NCBI RefSeq assembly: GCF_013359755.1
Contig: NZ_JABMCJ010000067.1
Span: forward strand, 1 to 64,000
DNA length: 64,000 bases
Source: Tardiphaga robiniae
GTDB taxonomy: Bacteria; Pseudomonadota; Alphaproteobacteria; Rhizobiales; Xanthobacteraceae
Direction of reading: 5' to 3'
Numbering within the stretch: position 1 is the stretch's first letter; each line of letters opens with the position of its first letter. Positions 4,077 through 46,563 of this stretch are shown one piece after another. The translations under genes were made by a program, and so were the position numbers. The notes beneath the pieces are model-generated. The model saw only the letters and a list, made by a program, of their open reading frames with translations, was not told the DNA's origin and ran no database searches.

Positions 4077-4190
4077 CGTCATTGCGAGCCCGCGAAATTC
4101 GCCTTCGGCGATTTTCGCTGAGCGAAGCAATCCAGTCTTGCTTGAAAGAAAGTCTGGATTGCTTCGTCGCAAGTGCTCCTCGCAATGACG
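4077..4190. repeat. Palindromic repeat, CGTCATTGCGAGC family, copy 1
   Basis: It opens CGTCATTGCGAGC and closes CGCAATGACG, with internal GCGAAGCAATCCAG and CTGGATTGCTTCGTCGC. Copies with the same ends and core lie at 42942-43087 and 60731-60814. It fills the convergent gap between the SGNH gene and metZ, so it may serve as a bidirectional terminator. Confidence 0.92.
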
Positions 4191-6863: not shown

Positions 6864-7526
6864 TTACTGAACGAAGCCTGCGCCGAAGTTGCCCAGATTG
6901 AAGCGATAGTTCAGGCCGGCCTTGATCGTGTGCTCGTCGTTCTTGAAACCACCAACGGCGAGGGTCGGCGTGATGAAGTTGACGTTGCCGAAGTCGTAAT
7001 ACTGGTACTCGACCTTGCCCGACCAGTTCTGGGTGAACAGGTATTCGAGACCGCCACCAACCGTGTAGCCATCGCGGCCACCATCGCCGGCAAAGCCGTT
7101 GGTGAAGCGAGAGTCAGCCCAGGCGTAACCACCCTTCACGTAGAGCAGTGCTGGACCCCAGGTGTAACCGACACGACCGGTGACCGAACCGAGGCCGCGA
7201 TTGTCGAAGTTGCTGCTGGTGGACAGGAAGCTGTAATTGGCTTCAAGACCGAACACCCAGTTCGGGGCGAACTGGTAGTCGTAACCACCCTGCACACCGC
7301 CCATGAACGTGCCGTCGTTGCTGCCGCCGAGCAGGTTGTTGTCGTTGCCCGGGAACGCGCCGCCGATGTGACCGCCGATGTAGAAACCGGTCCAGTTGTA
7401 GATCGGAGCAGCCGGAGCATAGGCCGGAGCCTTGGTGTAAGGGCGCGCAGCCAGGTCAGCAGCGGACGCCGGAGCGGCCAAAGCGACGAGGGCCAGAGCA
7501 GCGGTAGACAGTAGAAGCTTCTTCAT
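6864..7526 (-). CDS. Outer-membrane beta-barrel protein, Omp25/31 type
   Basis: A 220-residue secreted barrel with a clear signal peptide (MKKLLLSTAALALVALAAPASA, then ADLAA). The barrel begins at YNWTGFYIGGHIGG and ends at the typical C-terminal strand (AGLNYRFNLGNFGAGFVQ) with repeated amphipathic strands such as VFGLEANYSF, VTGRVGYTWG and WSGKVEYQYYDFG. It is the single-barrel version of the domain that occurs twice in each of the two proteins near 37-40 kb. It is probably a small structural or porin-like outer-membrane protein. A good ribosome site (AAGGAAC) precedes the ATG. Confidence 0.88.
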   Translation of the reverse strand: MKKLLLSTAALALVALAAPASAADLAARPYTKAPAYAPAAPIYNWTGFYIGGHIGGAFPGNDNNLLGGSNDGTFMGGVQGGYDYQFAPNWVFGLEANYSFLSTSSNFDNRGLGSVTGRVGYTWGPALLYVKGGYAWADSRFTNGFAGDGGRDGYTVGGGLEYLFTQNWSGKVEYQYYDFGNVNFITPTLAVGGFKNDEHTIKAGLNYRFNLGNFGAGFVQ

Positions 7527-40379: not shown

Positions 40380-41600
40380 ATGCCTTCGCGCCGCAGGTCT
40401 GTCTTTAGGACGGCAACACTCGCTGCAGTTGTCTCGATTCTGGCCCATTCGGCCTCTGCGGCGGACAAGAAATACGATCCGGGTGCCAGCGATACCGAGA
40501 TCAAGCTTGGCCAGACCATCCCCTATAGCGGCGCCGGTTCCCTGTATGGCGTGATCGGCCGGACACAGGCCGCCTATTTCCAGATGCTGAACGAAAAGGG
40601 CGGCATCAACGGCCGCAAGATCAATTTCATGTCGCTGGACGATGCCTATAGTGCGCCGAAGGCCGTCGAGGCCACCCGCCGGCTGGCGGAGCAGGACGAG
40701 GTGCTGGCGCTGTTCGGCTCGCTGGGCACTGCGCCGCAGTCGGCGGTGCAGAAGTTTCTCAACAGCAAGAAGATCCCGCAGCTGTTGCTCAACACCGGCG
40801 CCTCGCGCTGGAACAACCCGAAAGAGTTCAAGTGGACCACGCCGGGCCTGCCGATCTATTCGACCGAGGGCCGGATCATCGCGCGCTACCTGATGCAGGC
40901 CAAGCCGAACGCCAAGGTCGCGATCCTTTACCAGAACGACGAGTTCGGAAAGGACTTCATGAATTCGTTCAAGGAGATTCTGGCCGAAGCGGGCGGCTCC
41001 GCGAAGGTGATCGCCGAGGCGTCTTATGACCTCACCGATCCGACCATCGATTCCCAACTGATCAATCTGGCGAAATCGGGCGCCGACACTTTCTTCAACA
41101 TCTCCACCGGCAAGGCGACGTCGCAGTCGATCCGCAAGGTCGCGGAGCTCGGCTGGAAGCCGCTGCATCTCCTGGTGTCGACCTCGAGCGGTCGCTCGAT
41201 CATCAACGCCGCCGGCGCCGAGAATGCCAAGGGCATCGTGGCGATGACCTACACCAAGGAAGTCAGCAGCGAGAAGTGGAAGGACGATCCGGACGTGATC
41301 GCCTTCCAGGAGCTGCGCAAGAAGTATCTGCCGAATGTCGATCCCGACAACACCATCGCATTCCAGGGCTATTCGCAGGGCGTGACCATGGCGGAGATCC
41401 TGCGCCGCTGCGGCGACGATCTCACCCGTGAGAATGTCCTGAAGCATGCCACCAATCTGGAAGGCTACCGCGCACCGGTGTTCCTGCCGGGTATCACCTA
41501 TGGCTTCACGCCGACCGACTACACTACCATCAAGGCGCTCTATGTGGGCACATTCAACGGCACCGACTGGGATCTGTCGGACAAGCCGGTGAGCCAGTAA
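40380..41600 (+). CDS. Branched-chain amino-acid-type ABC substrate-binding protein, copy 1
   Basis: A 406-residue periplasmic protein (signal peptide MPSRRRSVFRTATLAAVVSILAHSASA) of the LivK/Peripla_BP_6 type. It starts ADKKYDPGASDTEIKLGQTIPYSGAGSLYG and carries DDAYSAPKAVEATRRL, FGSLGTAPQSAVQKFLN, LYQNDEFGKDFMNSFK and YDLTDPTIDSQLINLAKSGAD. Members feed LIV-type or related ABC importers. No permease or ATPase genes adjoin. A paralogue with the same leader pattern (CAGGGAGAAAAC) follows after 106 bases. Ligand not predictable. Confidence 0.92.
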   Translation: MPSRRRSVFRTATLAAVVSILAHSASAADKKYDPGASDTEIKLGQTIPYSGAGSLYGVIGRTQAAYFQMLNEKGGINGRKINFMSLDDAYSAPKAVEATRRLAEQDEVLALFGSLGTAPQSAVQKFLNSKKIPQLLLNTGASRWNNPKEFKWTTPGLPIYSTEGRIIARYLMQAKPNAKVAILYQNDEFGKDFMNSFKEILAEAGGSAKVIAEASYDLTDPTIDSQLINLAKSGADTFFNISTGKATSQSIRKVAELGWKPLHLLVSTSSGRSIINAAGAENAKGIVAMTYTKEVSSEKWKDDPDVIAFQELRKKYLPNVDPDNTIAFQGYSQGVTMAEILRRCGDDLTRENVLKHATNLEGYRAPVFLPGITYGFTPTDYTTIKALYVGTFNGTDWDLSDKPVSQ

Positions 41601-41706: not shown

Positions 41707-42924
41707 ATGAACAAGGGACTGTTTGCGTCTGCGGCGCGGGTCGCCGTCGTCGTGTTGCCACTGACTATGACGGCCGCTATCGCCGCCGACAAGAAATACG
41801 ATCCAGGCGCCAGCGACACTGAAATCAAGATCGGACAAACCATTCCGCATAGCGGACCCGGTTCGCTCTATGGCGTGCTAGGCCGTGTCGGTGAAGCCTA
41901 TTTCCAGAGCTTGAACGAGAAGGGCGGCATCAATGGCCGCAAAATCAAGTTTCTGACGATGGACGATTCCTACAGCGCACCGAAGGCGGTCGAGGCCACG
42001 CGCCGTCTGGTGGAGCAGGAGGAGGTACTTGCACTCTATGGCTCGCTCGGCACCGCGCCGCAGACGGCCGTGCACAAATATCTCAATTCCAAGGGCGTAC
42101 CGCAGCTGCTGCTCAACACCGGCGCATCGAAGTGGAACGATCCGAAGAACAACAAATGGACCATGGCCGGCCTGCCACTCTATCCGACCGAGGCGCGTAT
42201 TCTCGCCAAATATGCCGTCAGCGTGAATCCGAATGCGAAAGTCGGCATCCTCTATCAGAACGATGATTTCGGTCGGGATTTCCTCGGGCCGTTCAAGGAT
42301 GAACTCGCGAAAGCCGGCGGCACCGCCAAGGTGATCGCCGAGGTGACCTATGACCTCACCGATCCCACGATCGACTCGCAGCTGATCAATCTCGCCAAAT
42401 CCGGCGCCGATGTTTTCTATAACATCACCACCGGCAAGGCGACGTCACAGTCGATCCGCAAGGTGGTCGAGCTCGGCTGGAAGCCGCTGCAGTTGTTGTC
42501 GGCGGGCTCCACCGGCCGATCGATCCTGGAGGCGGCAGGGTTGGAGAACGCCAAGGGCATTGTCTCGATTGCCTATGGCAAGGATATCGGTTCGCCGCTT
42601 TATGCCAAGGATCCCGACATCGTGGCGTTCGAAGCGCTGCGTGCGAAGTATCTGCCGACGGTCTCCGCGGATAATTCGATCGCCTTCTTCGGCTATGGTC
42701 AGGCCGTGTCCATGGCGGAAATCCTACGCCGCTGCGGTGACGAGCTTACCCATGAGAACGTACTAAAGCAGGCCATCGGCCTGAACGGCTTCCGCGCTCC
42801 GCAAATGCTGCCGGGGGTGAGTTACAGCTATACCAATGACGCCTATGTTCCGATGGCGACGCTCTACACCCAGCGGTTTGACGGCAAGGACTGGATCATC
42901 TCCGACAAGTCGGTGACGCAATAA
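41707..42924 (+). CDS. Branched-chain amino-acid-type ABC substrate-binding protein, copy 2
   Basis: A 405-residue paralogue of the preceding gene product, with signal peptide MNKGLFASAARVAVVVLPLTMTAAIA and the same mature start (ADKKYDPGASDTEIKIGQTIPHSGPGSLYG). Shared blocks include DDSYSAPKAVEATRRLVEQEEVLALYGSLGTAPQ, LLLNTGAS, YDLTDPTIDSQLINLAKSGAD and KATSQSIRKVVELGWKPL. It was probably produced by tandem duplication with copy 1. No transporter membrane components lie nearby, so both may use a shared importer elsewhere or act as receptors. Confidence 0.92.
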   Translation: MNKGLFASAARVAVVVLPLTMTAAIAADKKYDPGASDTEIKIGQTIPHSGPGSLYGVLGRVGEAYFQSLNEKGGINGRKIKFLTMDDSYSAPKAVEATRRLVEQEEVLALYGSLGTAPQTAVHKYLNSKGVPQLLLNTGASKWNDPKNNKWTMAGLPLYPTEARILAKYAVSVNPNAKVGILYQNDDFGRDFLGPFKDELAKAGGTAKVIAEVTYDLTDPTIDSQLINLAKSGADVFYNITTGKATSQSIRKVVELGWKPLQLLSAGSTGRSILEAAGLENAKGIVSIAYGKDIGSPLYAKDPDIVAFEALRAKYLPTVSADNSIAFFGYGQAVSMAEILRRCGDELTHENVLKQAIGLNGFRAPQMLPGVSYSYTNDAYVPMATLYTQRFDGKDWIISDKSVTQ

Positions 42925-42941: not shown

Positions 42942-43087
42942 CGTCATTGCGAGCCCCGGCGAAAATTGGCGCAGCCAATTTCGTTTGGGCGAAGCAATCC
43001 AGTCTTCTCTTGCTGTTTTCTGGATTGCTTCGTCGCAAGGGCTTAGGGGAAAGTTGCACGGCAACTTTCCTTGACCTCGCAATGACG
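42942..43087. repeat. Palindromic repeat, CGTCATTGCGAGC family, copy 2
   Basis: It has the same ends and core (CGTCATTGCGAGC, GCGAAGCAATCCAG, CTGGATTGCTTCGTCGC, CGCAATGACG) as the copies at 4077 and 60731. It also contains an extra inner hairpin (GGAAAGTTGC against GCAACTTTCC, near 43050-43071). It ends 25 bases before the helicase gene. Confidence 0.92.
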
Positions 43088-43111: not shown

Positions 43112-45832
43112 GTGCCGCCCCGTAAATCCGTCGCCAAACCTGACCTGTTGCCCGATCACTTCCTGCGCTGGTTCGCCATGCGCGGCTGGTCGCCGCGCGA
43201 ACATCAATTGGCGCTGCTGCAGATGGCGAGGGACGATCGCTCGGCGCTGCTGATCGCGCCGACCGGCGCCGGCAAGACACTGGCCGGGTTTCTTCCGACG
43301 CTGGTGGAACTGTCTAACCTCTCCCCGCTTGCGGGGAGAGGTCGGCTTGAGAGCGCAGCGAACAAGCCGGGTGAGGGGGAGCGCATAATTGAAACTCCCG
43401 AGTTCGCCGAAGCTCCCCCTCACCCGTCGCGGACTGCGTCCGCGCCAGCCTCTCCCCGCAAGCGGGGCGAGGGGAAAAACGCCCTCGTCTCCACCGGCCG
43501 CACCGTTCAGCGCACCGGTGGTCTGCACACACTCTACATTTCCCCGCTGAAAGCCCTTGCGGTCGACATCGCGCGCAACCTGGAAACGCCGATCGCGGAG
43601 ATGCAGCTGCCGATCAAGGTCGAGACGCGCACCGGCGACACGCCGGTGTCGCGGCGTGCACGGCAGCGCCGCTATCCGCCGGATATTCTTCTGACCACGC
43701 CGGAACAACTGGCCTTGCTGTTGTCGTCCGACGACGCGCCGTTTCTGTTCTCGTCGCTGAAGCGCGTCGTGCTCGACGAGTTGCATGCGCTGGTGACGTC
43801 GAAGCGCGGCGATCTGCTGTCGCTCGGCCTTGCGCGGCTGTGGAAACTCGCACCCGAGATGCGGGCCATAGGCCTGTCGGCGACGGTCGCCGAGCCTGAA
43901 TCGCTGGCACGCTTTCTGGTACCGCAGCCACCAGGCGAAAGCGTCTCGGCCGATATCGTCGTCGCCGGCGGCGCGGCCGAGCCGGTGGTCGAGATGCTCG
44001 ACACCAAGGAACGGTTGCCCTGGGCCGGGCACTCGGCGCGCCATGCGCTCGGCGAAATCTACGATCTCATCAAGGCCAACAAGACGACGCTTGTCTTCGT
44101 CAATACGCGCAGCCAGGCCGAGATGCTGTTCCAGGATCTCTGGCGCATGAATGACGATGGCCTCGCCATCGCGCTGCATCACGGCTCCCTCGACGTCGCG
44201 CAGCGCCGGAAGGTCGAGGACGCGATGTCGGCCGGGAAACTACGAGGTGTGGTCTGTACCTCGTCACTCGATCTCGGCGTCGACTGGGGCGATGTCGATC
44301 TCGTCATCAATGTCGGTGCCCCCAAGGGCGCCTCGCGGCTCATGCAGCGGATCGGCCGCGCCAATCACCGGATCGACGAAGCCTCGCGCGCTGTACTGGT
44401 TCCGGCCAATCGTTTTGAAGTGCTGGAATGCCGCGTTGCCATCGATGCCGTTGCCGAAAATGCCCAGGATACTCCGCCGTTGCGGACTGGTTCGCTCGAC
44501 GTGCTGGCGCAGCACGTGCTCGGCTGCGCCTGCGGCGCGCCGTTTCGCGCGGACGATCTCTATAACGAAGTGCGCTCGGCGGCGCCCTATGCCGAACTGT
44601 CGCGTGTCGATTTCGACGATACCGTGGAGTTCGTGGCGTCCGGCGGCTATGCGCTGAAAATCTACGAGCGTTTCGCCCGTATCAAGCAGGACGCCTCCGG
44701 CAAGTGGCGCGTCACCAATCCCAAGGTGCGCCAGATGTATCGCATGAATGTCGGCACCATCGTCGAGGATACGATGCTGAAGGTGCGGCTGGTGCGCGGA
44801 GACAGCGGAAAAGGCAAAAAGGGTGTCACTGGTGCGCTGGCGCGCGGGGGACGCATGCTCGGCCAGATCGAGGAGTATTTCATCGAAGGCCTTGTGGTCG
44901 GCGACACCTTTGTCTTTGGCGGGGAAGTCGTGCGCTATGAATCCCTGGTCGAGGATCAGGTCTATGTTTCGCGCGCTCATGACAAGGGCGCCAAGGTGCC
45001 GTCCTATATGGGCGGCAAGTTTCCGCTCTCGACCTATCTCGCGGAACGCGTGCGCAAGCTGCTGGACGATGAGCGCGCCTGGAAAGGCCTGCCTGATCAG
45101 GTACGCGAATGGTTGTCGCTGCAGGCCCATGTCTCGCATGTGCCCGGCGCGCGCGAACTGATGGTCGAGACTTTTCCGCGTGCCGACAAGCATTACCTCG
45201 TCTGCTATCCGTTCGAAGGCCGCCTCGCGCATCAAACATTGGGCATGCTGCTGACGCGCCGTCTTGAACGCGCCCGCGCGCGGCCGCTGGGCTTCGTTGC
45301 CAATGAATATGCGCTGGCCATATGGGGCCTCGGCGACACGTCGCACATGATCAGGCAGGGCAGGCTTGATCTCGCCGCTCTGTTCGATCCCGACATGCTC
45401 GGCGACGATCTCGAAGCCTGGCTCGCGGAATCGGCGCTGATGAAGCGCACGTTCCGCACCTGCGCGGTGATTTCGGGGCTGATCCATACGCGCTTCACCG
45501 GCGAGGAGAAATCGCGCCGTCAGGTGCTGTTCTCCACGGACCTGATCTATGACGTGTTGCGCAAGCACCAGCCCGATCACGTGCTGCTGCGTGCCGCGCG
45601 TGCCGACGCGGCGACGGGATTGCTGGACATTCGGCGATTGAGCGACATGCTGACGCGGATTCAGGGCCGCATCATTCACCGGGAACTCGACCGCGTCTCG
45701 CCGCTGGCGGTGCCGGTGATGCTGGAAATCGGCCGTGAAGCGGTATACGGCGAGGCGTCCGACGAGCTCCTGGCAGAAGCCGCCGAGGAACTCGTGAAAG
45801 AGGCGGCAGGATTCGAAGAGATGGGATCGTAA
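43112..45832 (+). CDS. Ligase-associated DEXH-box helicase (Lhr family) with in-frame repeat insert
   Basis: A 906-residue Lhr-type superfamily 2 helicase. Walker A is APTGAGKT (49-56), motif Ia YISPLKALAVD follows at about 142-151, DELH (motif II) is at 222-225, and LSATVAE, VFVNTRSQAEMLF, GSLDVAQR, CTSSLDLGVDWGDVDLVI and QRIGRANHR are the later helicase motifs. Beyond these come the Lhr C-terminal regions. A block of about 70 residues (about 68-137, SNLSPLAGRGRLES... to ...TVQRTGG) between motif I and Ia is encoded by a palindromic repeat and seems foreign to the enzyme. It is the helicase partner of the ligase and exonuclease at 33-36 kb. GTG start. Confidence 0.92.
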   Translation: MPPRKSVAKPDLLPDHFLRWFAMRGWSPREHQLALLQMARDDRSALLIAPTGAGKTLAGFLPTLVELSNLSPLAGRGRLESAANKPGEGERIIETPEFAEAPPHPSRTASAPASPRKRGEGKNALVSTGRTVQRTGGLHTLYISPLKALAVDIARNLETPIAEMQLPIKVETRTGDTPVSRRARQRRYPPDILLTTPEQLALLLSSDDAPFLFSSLKRVVLDELHALVTSKRGDLLSLGLARLWKLAPEMRAIGLSATVAEPESLARFLVPQPPGESVSADIVVAGGAAEPVVEMLDTKERLPWAGHSARHALGEIYDLIKANKTTLVFVNTRSQAEMLFQDLWRMNDDGLAIALHHGSLDVAQRRKVEDAMSAGKLRGVVCTSSLDLGVDWGDVDLVINVGAPKGASRLMQRIGRANHRIDEASRAVLVPANRFEVLECRVAIDAVAENAQDTPPLRTGSLDVLAQHVLGCACGAPFRADDLYNEVRSAAPYAELSRVDFDDTVEFVASGGYALKIYERFARIKQDASGKWRVTNPKVRQMYRMNVGTIVEDTMLKVRLVRGDSGKGKKGVTGALARGGRMLGQIEEYFIEGLVVGDTFVFGGEVVRYESLVEDQVYVSRAHDKGAKVPSYMGGKFPLSTYLAERVRKLLDDERAWKGLPDQVREWLSLQAHVSHVPGARELMVETFPRADKHYLVCYPFEGRLAHQTLGMLLTRRLERARARPLGFVANEYALAIWGLGDTSHMIRQGRLDLAALFDPDMLGDDLEAWLAESALMKRTFRTCAVISGLIHTRFTGEEKSRRQVLFSTDLIYDVLRKHQPDHVLLRAARADAATGLLDIRRLSDMLTRIQGRIIHRELDRVSPLAVPVMLEIGREAVYGEASDELLAEAAEELVKEAAGFEEMGS
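43318..43474. repeat. Palindromic repeat inside the helicase gene
   Basis: Hairpins CCTCTCCCCGC-TT-GCGGGGAGAGG (43318-43341) and CCTCTCCCCGC-AA-GCGGGGCGAGG (about 43449-43473) flank the segment. Between them GGTGAGGGGGAGC (about 43370-43382) is complementary to GCTCCCCCTCACC (about 43412-43424). The unit is 157 bases and falls within the extra block of the helicase while the frame stays open. This type of CTCTCCCC-rich palindrome is, to my knowledge, a common dispersed element in alphaproteobacteria. Confidence 0.88.
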
Positions 45833-45870: not shown

Positions 45871-46563
45871 ATGCACGCTGAGACCATCACCGTCGATATG
45901 AGCACCGTCAGCATCGCCGGCGTCACGCTGGCTGCGGACCTGTCGGGCGCCTTGTATTGGGAAGAGCAGAAACTTCTCGTGGTGTCCGACCTGCATCTCG
46001 AAAAGGGCTCCAGCTATGCCAATCGCGGCGTGCTGCTGCCGCCCTACGATACGATCGCAACGCTCGGTCGCCTCGGTGCGGTGATCGCGCGTCACGATCC
46101 GCGCATTGTGATTGCGCTCGGCGACAGCTTCCACGACCGTGACGCCCATGAGCGGTTGTCGCCGGCCAATCGCGAGGTGCTGTCTGCATTGCAGATGCGC
46201 CGTGACTGGATCTGGATCTCAGGCAATCACGATCCTGCATTGCCGCCGGATCTCGGCGGCACCGTCGCTGAAGAAGTGGCCATCGGCCCGATCACCTTCC
46301 GTCATGAGCCGACTGGTGCTGCCGGCGAGATTGCCGGTCACTTGCATCCAAAGGCGCGCGTCAGCACGCGCGGGCGCGCCGTCGAACGTCGTTGCTTTGC
46401 GAGCGACGGCACCCGCGCGGTGATGCCGGCCTTCGGCGCCTATACGGGTGGGCTCAACATCCGCGATGCAGCATTCGCCAGGATCTTCCAGACCCTTGGC
46501 TTCGTTGCCCATGTGCTCGGCGACCGGCGCATGCACGCCATTGCTGCCTCGCGCTGTTGCTAG
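45871..46563 (+). CDS. Ligase-associated DNA damage response phosphoesterase PdeM-like
   Basis: A 230-residue calcineurin-like metallophosphoesterase. The metal motifs are VVSDLHLEKG (DxH), IALGDSFHDR (GDxxHD), WISGNHDP (GNHD), and GHLHPKARV (GHxH) with an upstream FRHEP. It resembles PdeM/TIGR04123, the phosphoesterase encoded with the Lhr helicase, ligase and MBL nuclease. It starts 38 bases after the helicase stop, so the two form one unit. An ATG at 45898 is an alternative start. Likely acts on damaged DNA ends or on a nucleotide phosphodiester. Confidence 0.9.
   Translation: MHAETITVDMSTVSIAGVTLAADLSGALYWEEQKLLVVSDLHLEKGSSYANRGVLLPPYDTIATLGRLGAVIARHDPRIVIALGDSFHDRDAHERLSPANREVLSALQMRRDWIWISGNHDPALPPDLGGTVAEEVAIGPITFRHEPTGAAGEIAGHLHPKARVSTRGRAVERRCFASDGTRAVMPAFGAYTGGLNIRDAAFARIFQTLGFVAHVLGDRRMHAIAASRCC

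Follow-up and report, generated by a model that had tools for sequence, protein, structure and literature searches.

A dispersed palindromic repeat in frame within the linker of a ligase-associated helicase of Tardiphaga robiniae, at a site probably filled repeatedly by different repeat families

Palindromic elements that lie in frame within genes are best known from Rickettsia. In the parts of the literature available to us, the Rickettsia palindromic elements (RPEs) are described as dispersed palindromes with stable stem-loops and open frames that are found in frame in conserved genes, and an RPE-bearing guanylate kinase is reported to be active with a changed substrate affinity (PMC2229807; PMC10969869); their size is given as 105-146 bp (PMC2229807) or about 150 bp (PMC10969869). 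Repetitive extragenic palindromes (REPs) tagged by GTAG or CGTC, with CCTC permitted as a variant of CGTC, are named for Bradyrhizobium and Rhodopseudomonas palustris in the accessible part of a survey which also records palindromic repeats in genes of replication and of repair, speculates on a modified activity, and describes different REPs at about the same recB site in two Xanthomonas species (PMC3733652). The enterobacterial RU-1, RU-2 and RU-3 are outlined as small repeats with open frames that form in-frame gene fusions (PMC2759123). The present study concerns a palindromic repeat, here named the type-A element, that lies in frame within the gene of a ligase-associated DEXH-box (Lhr-type) helicase of Tardiphaga robiniae, on a stretch of 64,000 nucleotides (contig NZ_JABMCJ010000067.1, positions 1 to 64,000) referred to as the window. 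We read it as a non-autonomous hairpin repeat inserted in frame into a tolerated linker that has been filled repeatedly by different families, and give this reading a probability of a little over three in four. In the following, G000 denotes the window's own genome, and other G- and L-numbers the genomes and loci of relatives used for comparison.

The type-A element in the helicase and in the genome

The helicase is encoded by an open reading frame with a GTG start and scores 1100.2 bits against TIGR04121 in the NCBIfam scan (cut-off 850), which places it in this family. It reads ...APTGAGKTLAGFLPTLVEL, followed by S-NLSPLAGRGR...PRKRGEG-KNALVSTGRTVQRTG and then by GLHTLYISPLKALAV; the conserved blocks on either side of the insert are intact and the frame is unbroken. 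Taking these blocks to be motif I and motif Ia, as the preliminary description of this DNA also did, the linker lies after the helix following motif I and before the strand of motif Ia. The features in question are as follows.

43112..45832, + strand: ligase-associated DEXH box (Lhr-type) DNA-repair helicase, 906 amino acids, carrying the insert (open reading frame; TIGR04121)
43318..43472, + strand: type-A palindromic element, in frame, residues about 69-121 (inverted repeats; fold z; genome copies)
43317..43342, + strand: 5' terminal hairpin, 12-bp stem, 2-nt loop (inverted-repeat search)
43343..43369, + strand: side arm 1, stem about 43343-43349 / 43363-43369 (fold; covariation)
43368..43426, + strand: central hairpin, arms 43368-43382 and 43412-43426, 15 nt, 100% complementary (inverted-repeat search)
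43428..43444, + strand: side arm 2, stem about 43428-43434 / 43438-43444 (fold; covariation)
43449..43472, + strand: 3' terminal hairpin, an inverted copy of the 5' hairpin with one mismatch (sequence; outer arms)
43473..43522, + strand: native linker remainder KNALVSTGRTVQRTG, preceding the strand toward motif Ia (likeness to KNALASTGRGVQRTGG of a clean relative)

The element is 155 nt long. Its outer arms of 29 nt each are complementary at 90% and thus form terminal inverted repeats of the kind by which miniature inverted-repeat transposable elements are recognised; the 5' arm also folds alone as a 12-bp hairpin, and the end sequence of the element is TTAACCTCTCCCC. The predicted fold is cloverleaf-like, with two side arms besides the outer and central pairs, and reaches -111.4 kcal/mol as RNA compared with a shuffle mean of -69.5 (z -9.15; none of 200 shuffles was as good). 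Both the in-frame insertion of a palindrome into an Lhr-type helicase and its terminal hairpins and internal pair, as put forward in the preliminary description, are therefore confirmed. The same description counted some 70 extra residues, which holds for the distance between the conserved blocks, but only about 52 of these are derived from the element; the others belong to the native linker, whose shortest clean versions within the genus have 19 residues, and KNALVSTGRTVQRTG resembles KNALASTGRGVQRTGG in the clean relative G013. The peptide encoded by the insert is rich in Pro, Gly, Arg and Glu. In Rfam, no family reached its gathering score between 42000 and 45000, two microRNA-type matches over the element lying far below theirs.

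The own genome, 6.3 Mb in 94 contigs, was searched as suggested in the preliminary description, with 40 of the 88 initial candidates scored, and the repeat proved to be dispersed. At least 115 matching pieces, some of them short, merge to 40 places, and a pattern of the terminal hairpin matched 51 times per strand as opposed to 0 times for the reversed-pattern control. Four further places were taken from this pattern and tested at the hairpin only, which brings the total to at least 44 places among the matches listed; a weak pattern match on contig C3 (3 mismatches) and a type B-like match (L160) were left out of the count. Aligned over 163 positions with another copy from the genome, the helicase copy shows 82.8% identity. 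The measured copies comprise a short form of 116-164 nt and others of 197-232 nt.

When 19 copies were aligned in one orientation, the ends and the centre proved nearly invariant and the side arms variable. On the consensus structure, 96.3% of the cells pair (shuffled mean 88.2), and 72 cells carry two-sided changes, far more than the shuffled mean of 25.3 (0 of 500 as high), so the arms of the element keep their base pairing and not their sequence. With slid partners 8-16 such cells were obtained, a control partly favoured because the alignment was built from these same copies. Two-sided changes preserve pairing in 14 of the 46 consensus pairs, including 5 of 6 pairs in side arm 1 (helix 3; 91.7% of cells paired) and all 5 in side arm 2 (helix 6; 92.9%). 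As a separate observation, the side arms can be wholly different among the 19 copies and still palindromic, as if swapped as modules.

Occupation of the linker in related bacteria

The genus set consists of 18 genomes including the own one, of which 17 contain the region and one (G010) does not. Type A occupies the helicase linker in three (the window's genome, G016 and G005), a different palindrome, named type B, in five (G003, G017, G015, G011 and G006), a short hairpin in one (G008), and the remaining eight have no element. Within a single five-genome clade (Shimodaira-Hasegawa-like approximate likelihood ratio test support 99), type A is present in the window's genome, type B in three genomes and no element in one. 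The preliminary description held that an unrelated insert of similar length in relatives, or an old conserved domain at this position, would speak against an insertion. The first half of this applies, as an insert of similar length and different sequence does occur in the five carriers of type B; it is, however, itself a dispersed palindrome, and eight relatives are empty, so the linker between motifs I and Ia is a recurrent insertion site. An old conserved domain was rejected on the basis of the clean relatives. Two linkers are out of frame, those of G015 (L050) and G008 (L046), the latter with a second break downstream; a C-run of G015 has fewer letters than its counterparts in G003 and G017. 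The shifts are either sequencing errors or real changes.

For a wider view, 92 sequences from Tardiphaga, Bradyrhizobium, Rhodopseudomonas and their kin were compared, 80 of them named loci and 12 from the genus set, giving 89 readable linkers after L127, L129 and L140 had been excluded because they lacked a linker pair. Assigned by peptide signature, 31 linkers are filled (type A 5, B 5, C 5, D 10, E 4, F 2), 49 are clean, eight hold possible remnants and one the short hairpin. The insert types differ between sister species, and 86 of the 89 are in frame, the exceptions being the two shifted linkers of G015 and G008 and one locus containing a stretch of N. In those carrier genomes that were searched, types A to D proved to be dispersed, with further copies in 5 of 5 carriers for type A, 4 of 5 for B, 5 of 5 for C and 3 of 10 for D (L095 was left out of the type-D search). 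In G007, which has a clean linker, type B is nearly absent, with one short match.

Folding of the linkers was scored against 40 shuffles each, with linkers below 60 nt and the locus with N excluded. Type A gave z values from -6.1 to -10.2, type C from -6.5 to -11.7 and type D from -3.0 to -7.3; type E, for which folding is the evidence, ranged from -5.4 to -10.3 in three of its four members, while 37 of the 49 clean linkers lay between -2.0 and +2.2. On a quick tree built from the helicase part downstream of the linker, 31 of whose 86 inner branches are weak, the distribution of the six types takes at least 26 changes (a raw count of gains and losses together). The starred branches alone force at least four changes for type A, five for D, four for E, three for B, two for C and two for F.

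Elsewhere in the genome, type-A copies rarely lie inside conserved genes. Over the 44 places, 35 reading frames traverse a copy with at least 25 residues on each side. Pfam was run on 20 of them, the helicase being scanned with NCBIfam, and found domains on both sides of the copy in one, a dual-ATPase ATP-binding cassette (ABC) protein, and on the downstream side only in four. Two of the 44 places, the helicase and the ABC ATPase, are thus shown to be within conserved genes, a count that covers open frames crossing a copy and not genes broken by one. In 28 copies, 77 of 168 frames are open, an average of 2.75 of six per copy; an open frame is therefore unsurprising in itself, and the surprising part is its survival in a conserved gene.

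In the ABC protein (G000:C7:21444-23255; L022:608-2419, - strand), the type-A copy occupies the linker between the two ATPase domains. A copy at the same place is also present in G001, G004 and G005, a remnant-like stretch in G002, and another palindrome-like insert, out of frame, in G008. The linker is short and free of an element in G015, G003, G017, G007, G011, G016, G012, G013 and G014. G006, with unreadable motifs, and G009 were left out of this comparison, and G010 had no match.

Tolerance of the insert and competing explanations

The helicase remains under constraint in the carriers, as indicated by low ratios of nonsynonymous to synonymous substitution (dN/dS) over 763 codons downstream of the linker: 0.020 for G000-G015, 0.035 for G000-G007, 0.045 for G000-G003, 0.041 for G000-G017, 0.040 for G003-G017 and 0.030 for G015-G007, these five genomes being the closest ones, within a range of 0.020-0.074 over the ten pairs tried. 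In a structural alignment of 47 of the 80 named helicase loci together with the window's protein (48 helicases, residues 47-895), all but three of the intervals between invariant columns have a constant length. The exceptions are the motif I/Ia linker, with 11-111 residues, and the stretches at residues 272-280 (6-59) and 562-571 (5-15). Since the linker is one of only three such places, the insert would survive there with ATPase and helicase function kept. Five relatives from another clade have a longer loop at residues 272-280; of these inserts, the four that were folded form hairpins (L101:3140-3313, L107:3137-3310, L138:3125-3196, L074:3176-3223), and that of L101 has a small number of further copies, found in its own genome and in two related ones. 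In an AlphaFold2 model, residues 71-136 have a predicted local distance difference test score (pLDDT) below 50 and no secondary structure between helix and strand, with 25-31 per block for residues 71-130 beside well-modelled parts of the first RecA domain. Together with the clean relatives, this model agrees with the tolerated loop proposed in the preliminary description, and the insert is probably disordered.

The following course of events would account for these findings. A type-A repeat enters the linker that connects motifs I and Ia at the protein surface, in a phase that leaves the reading frame open, moved either by some transposase acting on the hairpin ends or by recombination copying, of which we infer the former to be the more plausible. 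Entries that are out of frame or break the structure would be removed by selection, and the peptide would be translated, disordered in the cell and neutral. The same linker would have been entered, emptied and re-entered by several palindromic families in the Bradyrhizobium/Tardiphaga/Rhodopseudomonas group.

A number of observations weigh against this account. Among 29 whole copies, in which TAA stands on the left in 13, TTA on the right in 15, both in seven and TTAA on both sides in three, no target-site duplication is visible, nor could one be distinguished, because the ends are mirrored. A search of the own genome for a REP-associated tyrosine transposase (RAYT; Y1 transposase, PF01797) gave 0 matches, with 5 of 14 control genomes positive, and the RAYT was dropped as a candidate mobiliser. 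In the window's genome, the filled alleles of both the helicase and the ABC protein are missing some linker residues that relatives have, so neither insertion is clean, and adjacent sequence was lost either along with it or later. Overall, the quality of the AlphaFold2 model is poor (mean pLDDT 52.3). One type-B insert, that of L038, is weakly structured (z -0.9), and type F, grouped by peptide resemblance only, has no fold signal (z -1.3 and 0.1) and was rejected as a structured element. Finally, type A has the same orientation and frame in all five helicases that carry it, and likewise a single one in its four ABC linkers, which counts against independent insertions, as these would be expected to vary with 2.75 of six frames open per copy.

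It is this shared orientation and frame in the helicase that makes one old insertion in the ancestor of Tardiphaga and Rhodopseudomonas, followed by losses and by homogenisation or replacement through recombination with other repeats, a serious rival, although we consider it unlikely on balance. Against it, in the genomes searched, the helicase copy of G000 matches a non-helicase copy at 161 bits compared with 119 for any other helicase copy, that of G005 140 compared with 95, and that of G016 142 and 140 compared with 119 in the wider search; when only the trimmed copies of the window's genome are considered, the G000 helicase copy ranks first for G016 (119 versus 117 bits), which again favours the older origin. 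Also against a single old insertion, the edges of the insert differ over the five carriers, with 1-15 residues left before GLHTL and 2-7 after VEL. The two Rhodopseudomonas helicase copies are each other's best match (83%), and the filled sites are probably a mixture of new entries and old ones. Shared ancestry is likewise apparent in types B and D. Over 161 of 171 positions, the type-D copy of L089 shows 87% identity to the L086 helicase copy, which it matches more fully than it does the listed copies from the genome, all of them partial except for one at 71%. For type B, the copies of G017 and G011 agree at 86% (136 bits, with the best non-helicase copy at 103), whereas those of G003 and G006 have a nearest match other than that of G017. 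To judge from these sequence comparisons, types B and D are partly common by descent; different families at one site nevertheless require separate entries in any case.

Could the insert have been selected, with an mRNA hairpin or a disordered peptide tuning the helicase through a translation pause or the binding of DNA or a partner? Occupation recurs in 31 of 89 helicases, and the survey mentioned above, in the part available, speculates on a modified activity for repeats in replication and repair genes (PMC3733652), but 49 of the 89 linkers are clean, close sisters included, the peptides differ in detail, and the same pattern is seen in a non-repair protein, the ABC ATPase, which makes this explanation doubtful. 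We regard as equally doubtful the related idea that the linker serves as a landing pad, in which hairpins or peptides would interact with the helicase or the repair pathway and elements would be steered or kept there, so that several unrelated palindromic families would return to the loop again and again, tuning the enzyme. An assembly error or a dying gene would fit the frame shifts of G015 and G008 with the second break in the latter, yet it is very improbable given 86 linkers in frame and dN/dS values of 0.020-0.074 in the ten pairs tried. That a native, fast-evolving low-complexity linker resembles the repeat by chance can practically be dismissed, since clean linkers do vary in length too but the fold z of -9, the 82.8% identity to a genomic copy and the 51 hairpin matches against 0 in the control tell against it.

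These free-living relatives offer a dense natural experiment, in which one enzyme loop can be seen clean, filled, differently filled and possibly decaying. Named strains are among them, with Tardiphaga robiniae Vaf-07 and Rhodopseudomonas rhenobacensis DSM 12706 as carriers. The experiment makes testable whether such inserts are neutral passengers, at what rate they are gained and lost, and whether selfish DNA adds disordered segments to enzymes; it would be a natural record of selfish DNA being built into a working protein.

Gene surroundings and comparison with known systems

The helicase adjoins a further ligase-associated gene.

45871..46563, + strand: ligase-associated DNA damage response endonuclease PdeM, the next gene (TIGR04123; 228 bits, cut-off 150)

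Upstream, two tandem neighbour genes (40380-41600 and 41707-42924) with stretches about 80% alike look like putative ABC-type substrate-binding proteins. Related sequences, perhaps porin-like genes, recur at a spacing of about 1.6 kb between 37068 and 40054, and additional copies of some of them lie near 6900-7400. Immediately 5' of the helicase start, at 42942-43087, lies a different palindrome (CGTCATTGCGAG ... CTCGCAATGACG) with nested hairpins, which has the appearance of the CGTC-type REPs known from the literature; CTGGATTGCTTCGTCGCAAG-like stretches related to it are found at positions 4150 and 60774 of the window.

The best solved relative of the helicase, both by sequence and by fold, is Lhr from M. 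smegmatis (PDB 5v9x), which has about 8 residues at the linker compared with the roughly 70 found here. Among the literature matches listed, there was nothing on this helicase linker or on the type-A element. As far as the literature was searched, the type-A element and the use of a single enzyme loop by several palindromic families are new, whereas in-frame palindromic elements as such are established from the Rickettsia work, as the portions available describe it.

In comparison with the enterobacterial RU-1, RU-2 and RU-3, type A is likewise a small repeat with open frames fused in frame; the hosts and sizes differ, and the abstract and outline of that work do not mention one loop used by several families. 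With the GTAG- and CGTC-tagged REPs, type A shares the occurrence of palindromic repeats within repair genes. According to the accessible part of the survey, these REPs measure 20-40 nt with a stem of 8-9 bp and a loop of 4-5, unlike the 155 nt, 12-bp stem and 2-nt loop of type A. A GTAG or CGTC tag just outside the outer hairpins was found in 0 of 29 whole copies, and CCTC does open the terminal hairpin of type A but is paired. For the shared site, the REPs in Xanthomonas recB, as far as that survey was accessible, are the nearest precedent.

The resemblance to the RPEs noted in the preliminary description extends to several properties. Both are palindromic, dispersed, open-framed and present in frame in conserved genes, and type A has the terminal inverted repeats and the stable stem-loop. 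As to size, the RPE figures of 105-146 or about 150 bp stand beside 155 nt for the element and 116-164 and 197-232 nt for its copies. Unlike the RPEs as described in the parts available, type A is GC-rich, is shown within conserved genes at 2 of 44 places, and belongs to a different alphaproteobacterial group. Compared by description and not by sequence, the likeness appears to be one of mode of working and not of membership.

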